NCBI GenBank assembly: GCA_011046135.1
Contig: DSBG01000157.1
Coordinates: 1-40,528 of the forward strand
Reading direction: 5' to 3'
DNA from: Deltaproteobacteria bacterium
GTDB lineage: Bacteria; Desulfobacterota; Desulfomonilia; UBA1062
Length of the DNA stretch: 40,528 nt
Position 1 is the stretch's first letter, and each line of letters begins with the position of its first letter. The notes beneath the pieces were generated by a model. It ran no database searches. It was not told the origin of the DNA and saw only the letters and a program-made list of their open reading frames with translations. Positions 1-24,971 of this stretch are shown here, piece after piece. A program made the position numbers and the translations under genes.

Positions 1-580
1 CATTCTGCATTCTAGTGACTATACGCTGTTTTCCTGTACGTACGCAAGAAGACAGTCTCTTGCTGGTCTGTGCCTGTCGACTTGTTTGGTATGGCTGCAC
101 AGCCTGCAAGGCACCGCTGTTTACAAAATAGAGCAGTATGAACTGATTTCAAGAGATGTTCCTGGTGATCCTTCGGTTGTTCACATCCAGATCCAGGCGA
201 AACTCCCGGTTTGTGATTGATCACGGATCTGAAATGGATTATAGAAAAACCAGTATCCATATATCAGAGGACTACAGTTCCATCGCACTGTTTCTCAAGC
301 AGAAACACATCGTACGTTTACCGGCGGTGGTTTTTTCAGTGGACATCATGCACGGGAAAGAACATGGCGCAGTAGCAGGACCTCTTGTCCTCATGTCGGA
401 TACAGTCTGTGTTCACAAGAGAGTTTGGTAGACGACAGGAGGAGATACACAGGATTCATCAGACGACTCGTCGAAACAGGTACGAAGATACCTTGTACGT
501 TGAAAAAAGCATCCAAGTCTGGAGATTGTTCGTTCTCGGCAGGAAGCAACCAGCATCTACGATACTACAAGGAGGCAGTC
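1..580. other. Stretch with no supportable gene
   Basis: No reading frame here has both a ribosome-binding site and recognisable protein character. The frames open on either strand give Arg/Ser/His-rich products without domain-like patterning. The acyl-CoA synthetase frame stays open back to 425, but that extension lacks the character of the family and the strong GGAGG lies just before 581. A GTGAT-TG-ATCAC inverted repeat sits at 213-224. The region may contain the promoter of the acyl-CoA synthetase gene, but no convincing -35/-10 pair was found. Confidence 0.5.
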
Positions 581-22271: not shown

Positions 22272-22754
22272 TCAGTCGTCCTCTGTTCTTCTGTACGTCC
22301 CACTCTTGCCGCCTGATTTCTCCACGAGGCAGATGTCCGAGATGACCATGGCCTTATCAATGGCCTTGACCATATCATAGATGGTGAGCAGCGCAATACT
22401 GACCGCATGGAGGGCCTCCATCTCGACTCCGGTGGGTCCGGACACCGTGACCACTGCCTCTGCTTCGATGGAGCGGTCTGCCTTGCGGGGGGAAAAATTC
22501 ACGGAGACCTGGGAAATGGGGAGAGGATGACACAGAGGGATCATCAACGAGGTCTGTTTCGCCGCCATGATGCCTGCAATCTGTGACGTTACCAGAACAT
22601 TTCCCTTTTTCACACCATGGCCCATGATGGCATCAAAGGCCTCTTCGCTCATGGTGATTCTCCCCCTGGCCCGTGCGAGTCGCTGCGTTGTCTTTTTCCG
22701 ACCGACATCCACCATCACGACCCTTCCCTGATCATCGAGATGCGAGAGTCCCAC
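22272..22754 (-). CDS. moaC: Cyclic pyranopterin monophosphate synthase (MoaC)
   Basis: 160-residue molybdenum-cofactor enzyme that converts the MoaA product into cyclic pyranopterin monophosphate. Signature stretches are MVDVGRKKTTQRLARARG, SLMIPLCHPLPIS, and GVEMEALHAVSIALLTIYDM followed by KAIDK. The start is GTG 22754 with GAGGA about 9 bases upstream; this begins MGLSHLDDQG, the usual MoaC opening. It lies 12 bases after the FmdB gene and is the last gene of the reverse-strand operon that begins with the aromatic leader peptide. Other moa genes are absent from the window, so Mo-cofactor genes are probably scattered. Confidence 0.95.
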   Translation of the reverse strand: MGLSHLDDQGRVVMVDVGRKKTTQRLARARGRITMSEEAFDAIMGHGVKKGNVLVTSQIAGIMAAKQTSLMIPLCHPLPISQVSVNFSPRKADRSIEAEAVVTVSGPTGVEMEALHAVSIALLTIYDMVKAIDKAMVISDICLVEKSGGKSGTYRRTEDD

Positions 22755-22766
22755 CAGGAGCGATCC

Positions 22767-23069
22767 TCAGTCAGAATCCGAAGAACCTGCAGGGGATGAA
22801 GACGGTGTAGACGTGCTCTCGGAAGTACTCTCAGAGGATGAGGATAGGTCCGAACTCTTTCTTTCTCCGTTGGTTCCGTTCGGGGTTTTCCTCCTCGCGT
22901 AATCCGTGAGATACCACCCAGATCCCTTGAGCTGGAACGACGATCGGGACACCAGCTTCTTTACGGGACCCCCGCAGGAAGGACATACCTTCAGGGGGGA
23001 ATCAGAAAATTTCTGCATGGCTTCAAATTCCTGATTGCATTTCAAACACCGATATTCATAGATGGGCAT
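22767..23069 (-). CDS. FmdB-type zinc-ribbon protein
   Basis: 100-residue protein with an N-terminal FmdB/CxxC zinc ribbon: MPIYEYRC8LKC11 and C29PSC32GG. A basic linker (about 37-72) follows, and the last about 28 residues are a Ser/Thr-rich acidic low-complexity tail. FmdB ribbons are small and widespread; function is mostly unknown, with a proposed regulatory role. The start at 23069 is set by GGGAGGAG and by the conserved MPIYEY opening. The gene overlaps the upstream HExxH protein gene by 14 bases. Confidence 0.9.
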
Positions 23070-23583
23070 GGAGACTCCTCCCGTAATCATTGAGAATTTT
23101 CGAATCATATACTGGCGTGGCATGGAGTTTGTCAAGGAGCGCAATCACATTGTTCAACCCGGGGACGGGATGCTTGGTGATAAAGATCCTCGTGAGGGAA
23201 TCCACATAGACTTCTTCGTGTTCCGGGTCACCGAAGAAATCTGCCTTCCCCGTGGAAAATCGATGGACATGGAGCAGTTCGTGGGTGAGGATAAAGGTGA
23301 GGAACGTCAGCAGATCGATATCCGGGTTCTTTTGAACAAATTCGAGAATGAGCGGGTCCTGAAGACAGATGCTGTACCGGTGTTTCTCCTGTAAACGAGC
23401 TGTCTCAAGGCGAACCAGTTGAGCGAACACATCACCGTTGATCCGGGGTGCATCTCTTTCCGAACTGGTCCTGATGTCATAGAGATCCTCAACCTGTGAC
23501 CGTGTTTCCCTGGTCACGATCCGCTCCGCTATGTGTGACCCGAGGAGAAGGTAGTCCCTGTATTTCGGAAAGAGATATCCCAT
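23056..23583 (-). CDS. HExxH-motif putative zinc metalloprotein, unknown
   Basis: 175-residue soluble protein of no family I can name. It carries a zincin-like helix H101-E-L-L-H105 followed by VHRF, and about 18 residues later an acidic stretch [11 protein letters not shown] that could supply a third ligand as in gluzincins. Both features are seen; protease activity is inference. There is no signal peptide, so it should be cytoplasmic. The start is uncertain: ATG 23583 gives the natural-looking [10 protein letters not shown], but the nearest GGGGAG is about 16 bases upstream. It sits between the DAHP synthase gene and the zinc-ribbon gene, overlapping the latter, which argues for a real co-translated gene. 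Confidence 0.75.
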
Positions 23584-23623: not shown

Positions 23624-24643
23624 CTAGAGTTCTCTGCCCATGGCAGCACTGATACGGGTGATGCCCTGCATGACCCGGAAAAAATCATCGGGTCTCAATG
23701 ATTGGGGGCCATCGGAAAAAGCCTCTTCAGGTTTAGGATGAACTTCTATCATGAGACCGTCGGCACCGGCTGCAATGGCGGCATATGCCATGGGTTCCAC
23801 GTATCGTGCATGACCGGTACCGTGGGAAGGATCGACAAGGACGGGAAGGTGGGTTTTTTCCTTGAGTACGGGGACGGCGGAGATATCCAGCGTGTTCCGC
23901 GTGGAAGGCTCGAAGGTCCGGATACCGCGCTCGCACAGGATGACCTGAGAATTTCCTCCGGAAAGGACATACTCCGCTGACATGAGAAATTCGTCGATGG
24001 TGGTTGCCATTCCTCGTTTGAGCAGCACCGGTTTCTTCGTTTTTCCCACCTCCTTGAGGAGCTGAAAGTTCTGGATATTCCGGGCTCCCACCTGGAGACA
24101 GTCAGCGTACTGGGAGATGATCTCGATACTCGATATGTCCATGACCTCGGTTACTACCGGAAGATTGTACATCTTTCGTGCTTCAGCCAGGAGAACCAGC
24201 CCGTCCTGCATGAGCCCCTGAAATGCATACGGGGACGTCCTGGGTTTAAATGCCCCACCCCTGAGCATGTGGGCACCGCTTTTACTCACGGAGTCCCCCA
24301 CGGCCATGATCTGCTCCCGGGATTCCACGGCACAGGGTCCTGCAATGATGAGAAGCCTTTTTCCACCCACCGTCACCCCGAGGCCGATATCGAGCACCGT
24401 CGGATATGGCTGTGTCTCCCGGGAGGCGAGTTTGTAGGGACTTAGAATCGGGATCACCTTCTCAACCCCCGGTTGTGCTTCCAGGCTGGTCAATCTGTGC
24501 TTTCCCCGCTCATCGCCGATGGCGCCGAACACAACCCGTTCTGACCCGATGCTTTCATGAACCCGATAGCCGAAGGATTGGATGAGATCCTTCACGTTAT
24601 CGACCTGCTCTTTTGTTGCCCCTTTTTTCATGGAAATGATCAT
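23624..24643 (-). CDS. aroF: 3-deoxy-7-phosphoheptulonate synthase (DAHP synthase, type Ib with N-terminal regulatory domain)
   Basis: 338-residue first enzyme of the shikimate pathway, condensing PEP and erythrose-4-phosphate. Residues 1 to about 75 form a ferredoxin-like/ACT-type regulatory domain ([13 protein letters not shown] opening), as in the Thermotoga maritima enzyme of the same length. The catalytic barrel has [41 protein letters not shown] and VDPSHGTGH. The start at 24643 follows AGGAAAGGAAA. Upstream on the same strand are a Phe/Tyr-rich leader peptide and a terminator, so expression is predicted to be attenuated when aromatic amino acids are plentiful, in addition to allosteric control by the N-terminal domain. 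Confidence 0.95.
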
Positions 24644-24687: not shown

Positions 24688-24726
24688 AGAAAAAGGCCGC
24701 GGGGAAGTGAACCACCCGCGGCCTTT
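24688..24726 (-). terminator. Attenuator terminator upstream of aroF
   Basis: A perfect 12-bp GC-rich stem (24726-24715 with 24703-24692, arm AAAGGCCGCGGG) has an 11-base loop. On the reverse strand it runs straight into TTTTTCTT. It lies between the leader-peptide stop and the aroF ribosome-binding site, so it acts as an intrinsic terminator inside the 5' leader. A TGTTCA-N5-TGAACA repeat (24729-24745) lies just before it and could take part in an alternative fold. Confidence 0.88.
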
Positions 24727-24747
24727 GTTGTTCATGTCCTGAACAGA

Positions 24748-24825
24748 TCAGCCCATAGGCGGTCCCGTCCTTATTTCCCCGTAGTAATAATATCCGAAAA
24801 AGCCGTGTGCAGAGTGATCTTTCAT
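24748..24825 (-). CDS. Aromatic amino-acid leader peptide of aroF (25 aa)
   Basis: A 25-codon frame beginning at ATG 24825 with GAGAG 5 bases upstream and ending TGA 24748. The peptide contains two Phe codons (9-10), a Gly, then four consecutive Tyr codons (12-15: TAT TAT TAC TAC). This composition is the hallmark of ribosome-mediated attenuation: scarcity of charged tRNA-Tyr/Phe stalls the ribosome on the leader and prevents the terminator at 24688-24726 from forming. It is followed within 22 bases by that terminator and then by the DAHP synthase gene. A promoter could not be assigned with confidence. The peptide itself probably has no function beyond being translated. Confidence 0.88.
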   Translation of the reverse strand: MKDHSAHGFFGYYYYGEIRTGPPMG

Positions 24826-24971
24826 GCGTTCTCTCTACCAGGAAGCGTGCACTGAATCAAGGAGAAAGTAGCTGAATCCCACCGTGATCGGCTCTCATCC
24901 CCCGGGTCTGAAGCAGGGCAGAAAGGATGTCCGTGCGAACGCTTCAATGGGAACGAGTGGAGAACCCCACA

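Follow-up and report, generated by a model that had tools for sequence, protein, structure and literature searches.

In the window, a stretch of 40,528 nucleotides that is a contig of a 2.92-Mb, 99% complete genome, aroF is very probably controlled by ribosome-mediated transcription attenuation through a Phe/Tyr leader peptide. This conclusion rests on the sequence and its comparison with relatives, without expression data. A preliminary description of this DNA had proposed a Phe/Tyr attenuator of the DAHP synthase gene, and we found the proposal supported by compensatory changes in the antiterminator and by a peptide and an RNA that are both conserved in all 19 family members that are readable. 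Its scope stood for aroF but was too narrow, since relatives also use Trp codons and other genes carry the element.

Leader peptide and terminator upstream of aroF

The 25-codon Phe/Tyr frame with its FFGYYYY run, noted earlier on the reverse strand, was confirmed, as was the perfect 12-bp terminator with a T-run that lies close behind it, before aroF (Table 1). The terminator was paired in 99% of the cells of an alignment of 18 sequences, and the folding of the leader RNA was better than that of dinucleotide shuffles (z -2.6; 4 of 200). The aroF start codon at 24643 is preceded by AGGAAAGGAAACGTGCG, and its product carries an N-terminal ferredoxin-like regulatory domain, which makes it type Ibeta (DAHP_synth_1 and DAHP_snth_FXD both matched). 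Short ORFs with at least six aromatic residues in eight codons occurred twice on the two strands of the 40.5-kb window, and of these only the aroF leader was seen to be followed by a terminator and an amino-acid gene. The other one, LIYGYWFFYNPF (about 184-291, minus strand), had no terminator or amino-acid gene noted beside it and is probably a chance occurrence. On the plus strand, a cobalamin riboswitch (RF00174, 25000-25165) lies directly divergent from the leader, before a TonB-dependent receptor gene.

Table 1. Features of the aroF leader region and the genes behind it
Feature	Position	Strand	Remarks
Candidate -35 box TTGATT	24855..24860	minus	relatives have TTGCAA, TTGAAA or TTGACA at the equivalent place
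Candidate -10 box TAGAGA	24832..24837	minus	ends 6 nt before leader ATG; relatives have CATATA or TATATT there
Leader ORF MKDHSAHGFFGYYYYGEIRTGPPMG, stop	24825-24748	minus	25 codons; contains FFGYYYY; conserved in the family
Leader codons	24825-24748	minus	ATG AAA GAT CAC TCT GCA CAC GGC TTT TTC GGA TAT TAT TAC TAC GGG GAA ATA AGG ACG GGA CCG CCT ATG GGC TGA
Leader control codons	within 24748..24825	minus	Phe 9-10, Tyr 12-15
Leader stop codon TGA	24750-24748	minus	21 nt between TGA and terminator
Segment 2 GGACCGCCTATGGGCT	24750..24765	minus	antiterminator 5' strand; codons for GPPMG + stop
Antiterminator inner stem TGTTCA...TGAACA	24729..24745	minus	TGTTCA 24745-24740, TGAACA 24734-24729
Segment 3 AGGCCGCGGGTGGTTC	24709..24724	minus	antiterminator 3' strand and terminator 5' arm/loop
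Intrinsic terminator AAAGGCCGCGGG...CCCGCGGCCTTT + T-run	24690..24726	minus	arms 24726-24715 / 24703-24692; perfect 12 bp, G+C-rich
aroF, type-Ibeta DAHP synthase	23624..24643	minus	Pfam DAHP_synth_1 and DAHP_snth_FXD; NCBIfam 3-deoxy-7-phosphoheptulonate synthase
HExxH-motif protein, next after aroF	23056..23583	minus	no Pfam/NCBIfam match
FmdB-like zinc-ribbon protein	22767..23069	minus	Zn_ribbon_8
moaC	22272..22754	minus	MoaC

Antiterminator and switch geometry

When the RNA was folded up to the end of the terminator 5' arm, one long stem formed in most family members. In the window it joins GGACCGCCUAUGGGCU (24765-24750) with AGGCCGCGGGUGGUUC (24724-24709) around UGUUCA/UGAACA, a stem of 16 positions with a folding energy of -28.7 kcal/mol. 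The TGTTCA/TGAACA pair, described before as a competing pairing, is present and forms the inner stem of this antiterminator. A second pairing proposed at the same time, TGAACAAC with GTGGTTCA, had no covariation support (80.6% paired versus 81.1% in shuffles) and was rejected as the antiterminator, the supported stem being that of segments 2 and 3. Pairing in this stem amounted to 95.3% over the 18 sequences of alignment A2, both partners had changed in five of its pairs, and its covariation reached 0.149 versus 0.112 in shuffles (0 of 500) and 0.012-0.060 for a slid stem. In the compensatory changes, codons of the leader vary together with the loop of the terminator (GAACC:GGUUC, UGGCC:GGUCA, UGCC:GGCA); where Glu-Pro (GAACC) in the leader has become Trp-Pro (UGGCC), the loop has gone from GGUUC to GGUCA. 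Cognate pairing of segments 2 and 3 was more stable than non-cognate pairing (0 of 2000 permutations).

Masked folding of the window RNA with segment 3 just emerged gave an antiterminator probability of 0.95-0.96 for a ribosome at codons 9-16 and of 0-0.07 at codons 18-26. For RNA free of ribosomes the model put this probability at 0.68 when the decision falls; an untranslated leader thus does not leave the switch clearly off. Folding with a stalled ribosome had been suggested earlier as a check, and its outcome was divided: the antiterminator prevailed (about 0.95) once segment 3 emerged, but at equilibrium the full-length RNA favoured the terminator at most stall positions (codons 12-16). 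Antitermination must therefore be kinetic, as is accepted for trp and the classical attenuators. Covariation and masked folding indicate an antiterminator that shares a strand with the terminator, is freed by a stall at the control codons and is covered by a ribosome at the stop codon.

The observed codon spacing fits into the following proposed sequence of events. A short transcript would begin with the ATG of the leader itself or very close to it. With charged Phe- and Tyr-tRNA plentiful, the ribosome would reach the stop codon and cover segment 2, so that segment 3 would pair with segment 4, and with this 3:4 terminator formed RNA polymerase would stop at about 24690. If Phe or Tyr were short, the ribosome would stall on codons 9-15 with its front edge just short of segment 2, and the free segment 2 would pair with the emerging segment 3; the terminator would then come too late, and aroF, the HExxH gene, fmdB and moaC would be transcribed. 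Ribosome stalling and read-through, including a rise of the latter on starvation, are inferred.

Start of the leader transcript

The ribosome-binding site given for the leader in the preliminary description did not hold up: its AGAGAG overlaps bases that correspond to the -10 box in relatives and end 6 nt before the ATG, and judging from the alignment it is itself probably that box. The promoter-like pair in the window, TTGATT-N17-TAGAGA, is weak by consensus. Across relatives, the best promoter ended 5-8 nt from the leader ATG at 16 of the 18 loci of Geobacterales type and at 10 of the 18 aroF loci of the family, compared with 7-8% of shuffles. With a -10 box that ends 6 nt before the ATG, the window's leader mRNA is thus predicted to be leaderless. 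Leader mRNAs of aroF, and some of those of iorA, are probably leaderless, an inference without 5'-end data, as is the transcription start itself. Before ADTH synthase the distance from the -10 box down to the leader is mostly larger, about 20-38 nt, and SD-like sequences are present. There is precedent for such a start: the leader-peptide mRNA of Sinorhizobium meliloti trpL starts at its own ATG (PMC7298713), and a leader without ribosome-binding site has been described for ilvB of C. glutamicum, as cited in PMC4046766.

Conservation within the family

Relatives were gathered with the aroF protein and were all metagenome-assembled Deltaproteobacteria/Syntrophaceae. A search for Phe/Tyr-rich leaders upstream of related aroF genes, proposed earlier as a check, found the element in all 19 family genomes with a readable upstream region. 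The Tyr/Phe run and the terminator are thus present in close relatives, where their absence was to have refuted the attenuator. Family leaders take the form (F/Y)YGYYFWF...PPVG-stop, with F, Y and W interchanging. A covariance model (R1) built from 18 aroF-leader sequences matched before aroF in 19 family genomes with E below 1e-15. We discounted as noise any R1 matches below about 20 bits as well as antisense matches at the same loci, and dropped one match (G001:C70) for want of a leader peptide. In the R1 survey of the window's own genome aroF alone passed, and a plain pattern search there for five consecutive Phe/Tyr codons returned only one irrelevant match.

A Trp codon occurs in 17 of the 19 family leaders and is missing from that of the window. 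The window's genome has TyrA, aroF and iorA; neither prephenate dehydratase (PF00800) nor the TrpE N-domain (PF04715) was detected in it, while control profiles matched. TrpE was found in 22 of 24 relatives. A link between the absent Trp codon and the missing TrpE is suggestive, but this is a single case and an assembly gap is possible.

Two family loci deserve mention. The aroF product of G006 (L162, G006:C11) has an N-terminal region that did not match the ferredoxin-like regulatory domain, and the leader MNITANRFFSFYFWYFIQEPPVR with its stop is kept; perhaps feedback inhibition was lost and attenuation retained. At positions 1-811 of L159 (G053:C66), in a genome where AroF has no close match, two successive copies of an aromatic-leader attenuator precede a 62-codon ORF that is unidentified; in the second copy PPVG is not followed by a stop.

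Other lineages and other inferred target genes

For 40 other families of the phylum, we examined the region upstream of aroF in a single genome each. At least six aromatic residues in eight codons were found in 14 of the 40 families versus none of the 40 reverse strands and 0.4% of shuffles; several families reach seven, a value seen in 0 of 1600 shuffles. A genome of the same class (G028) carries FGFYFGWYYF, and several Nitrospinota aroF orthologues have a related leader, while no leader was found at the Dadabacteria and Bacillota aroF orthologues examined. A Geobacter-type leader, YFSYFHFYFWYGFYFRPSTRGKG, was also found in a Thermodesulfovibrionales MAG (L066), that is, in a bin named as another lineage, which reflects either transfer or mis-binning.

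Although R1 had been made from aroF alone, it also matched leaders before iorA, the ADTH synthase gene and an aminotransferase gene. The iorA gene encodes indolepyruvate:ferredoxin oxidoreductase. At 15 of 19 family iorA loci (TIGR03336), the window's genome included, at least five aromatic residues stood within eight codons; the leader in the window's own genome, found by IorA search, is MLPNDYTFSVQYYYFFSLRRKRP with its stop, followed by a terminator (L179, G000:C36; upstream of iorA at 291). The ADTH synthase gene (TIGR01949), followed by that of 3-dehydroquinate synthase II, has leaders at 20 of 31 loci and at 12 of 19 more, and an aminotransferase-like gene (L167) has the leader MKFNNFFFFFFVFTRAHPCP ending in a stop. 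From these occurrences we infer, again without expression data, that iorAB in the window's genome and ADTH synthase in other lineages are governed by the same device; in other lineages it probably also acts on an aminotransferase.

One device would serve DAHP synthase and ADTH synthase, which catalyse alternative first steps and are not homologous, together with iorAB. What is known about regulation of the aromatic pathway comes mainly from enteric bacteria, Bacillus and Corynebacterium; the element points to an aromatic regulon that works without a transcription factor, in a phylum whose members include sulfate reducers, syntrophs and metal reducers. Whether iorAB serves to make or to break arylpyruvates is often unclear for anaerobes, and a leader that responds to starvation speaks for biosynthesis as its role. 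Cultured members (Geobacter relatives such as Oryzomonas, Pelotalea and Geotalea) allow testing.

Tandem hairpins

Many loci carry two tandem hairpins before the gene, while the window has a single terminator. Between strand 4 (3' arm of the first hairpin) and strand 5 (5' arm of the second), cognate pairing gave -20.8 kcal/mol, compared with -17.8 for non-cognate and -12.0 for shuffled partners, and the cognate advantage over swapped loci was met in 0 of 2000 permutations. In nascent RNA before strand 6, at least eight 4:5 pairs were expected in 22 of 24 loci with 2:3 set, versus at most four in 16 of 24 loci with 3:4 allowed. These values suggest, tentatively and with the balance still somewhat against it, that many members are six-strand relay attenuators: a stall would form 2:3 and free strand 4, which would capture strand 5 and so disable the 5:6 hairpin. 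However, simple duplication of a terminator also yields 4:5 complementarity. L027 runs counter to the relay model, and L033 and L150 gave no 2:3 pairs as modelled. At equilibrium with strand 6 made, 5:6 was favoured in most loci and the relay was not; we assessed the relay by nascent-RNA folding, equilibrium folding being uninformative here.

In eight loci from several lineages (L200-L203, L026, L027, L073 and L116) the first hairpin lacks a U-tract, and regulation by the leader there would therefore need the relay; if it holds, their sole terminator would be controlled at second hand. The two-hairpin loci are a natural test of relay attenuation. If true, relay and leaderless leader ORF would together make an architecture that is, to our knowledge, undescribed, and it would serve an aromatic regulon (aroF, ADTH synthase, iorAB) across the phylum.

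Alternative explanations

The leader could instead encode an arrest peptide, with the nascent chain binding free Phe or Tyr and stalling the ribosome at the C-terminal PPVG without reading tRNA charging. Arrest-type stalling with Trp is known from TnaC, proline pairs slow ribosomes, and nearly all family leaders have PPVG or PPMG ahead of their stop. Outside the family, however, segment 2 keeps the motif GTCTGCCC, or one near it, in all three frames (frame 0, VCP, 18 loci; frame 2, RPSA, 19; frame 1, GLP, 11); its partner in the terminator arm is GGGCAGAC or a similar sequence. The nucleotide motif being constant across frames, DNA rather than peptide is conserved there, an unusually clean separation of RNA selection from peptide selection; F, Y and W, moreover, exchange freely in the aromatic block. 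An aromatic block kept as peptide and a segment 2 kept as nucleotides speak against an arrest peptide, which we regard as highly improbable, and for codon-sensing attenuation, as far as sequence conservation can tell.

We give hardly more than passing weight to the possibility that the terminator merely ends a small RNA or an upstream transcript and that aroF has its own promoter below it. No measured transcription starts contradict this, but the nearest upstream gene is divergent (the TonB receptor gene with its riboswitch), and the order leader-terminator-aroF recurs in every readable family member and in many lineages, with a covarying antiterminator. Alternative RNA structures would also be present in a leader that senses a metabolite or protein (riboswitch or RNA-binding protein) around an incidental ORF. 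That reading is scarcely credible: nothing in Rfam matched at gathering level in the window or ten other loci, and the aromatic codons are precisely the part kept at peptide level. The amino-acid leaders of Rfam (His, Thr, Trp, Leu, Phe) were likewise not matched at gathering threshold in these loci; the best score on the leader strand, 18.4 bits for His_leader against a threshold of 49, is sub-threshold noise at E up to 10. Attenuation by ribosome stalling on the Phe/Tyr codons remains the reading that we adopt.

Relation to known systems

As in E. coli pheA (pheL) and trp (trpL), the leader peptide contains many residues of the amino acids under control, antiterminator and terminator exclude each other, and segment 2 lies at the stop codon. 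In contrast to these, the element has mixed Phe/Tyr(/Trp) codons, precedes the first committed enzyme of the common pathway, occurs in another phylum, matches no Rfam leader, probably starts leaderless and, in many relatives, has tandem, relay-capable hairpins. In C. glutamicum, a leader peptide with Phe-Tyr-Phe precedes the DAHP synthase gene (aroR-aroF), with reported ribosome stalling (PMC4046766; PMC11802643, citing Neshat et al. 2014). That FYF is short and Phe alone is reported to be effective, whereas blocks of 5-8 aromatics are found here in an unrelated organism; unlike for the present element, no relation to iorAB or ADTH synthase is reported. The uORFC-13-1 motif of Acholeplasma aroF combines, by prediction, a uORF containing Phe codons with a terminator before the gene; according to the text of PMC8632094 it comprises 24 sequences from Acholeplasma and environmental DNA only, and the described consensus differs. 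The trpL mRNA of S. meliloti likewise starts from its own ATG but is a Trp leader of trpE(G) in Alphaproteobacteria (PMC7298713).

A search of open-licence papers, which does not exclude an earlier prediction, found no such attenuator for this phylum, Geobacter, Desulfovibrio or iorA. Within the reach of that search, the earlier claim of novelty stands for the phylum and not for DAHP synthase as such, whose leader attenuation has been reported in C. glutamicum and predicted in Acholeplasma. The predicted device, a conserved ribosome-mediated attenuator, is known in principle and new in its lineage, its targets and some of its architecture.

Genes downstream of aroF

The order aroF-HExxH-FmdB-MoaC was kept in 16 of 16 family loci examined, and these genes therefore probably share control. 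The suggestion that the downstream genes also fall under aromatic control gains from this order, but co-transcription has not been shown; that the four genes lie on one transcript is a plausible inference. The HExxH protein always sits between aroF and fmdB in the family and diverges faster (41-52% identity) than its neighbours.
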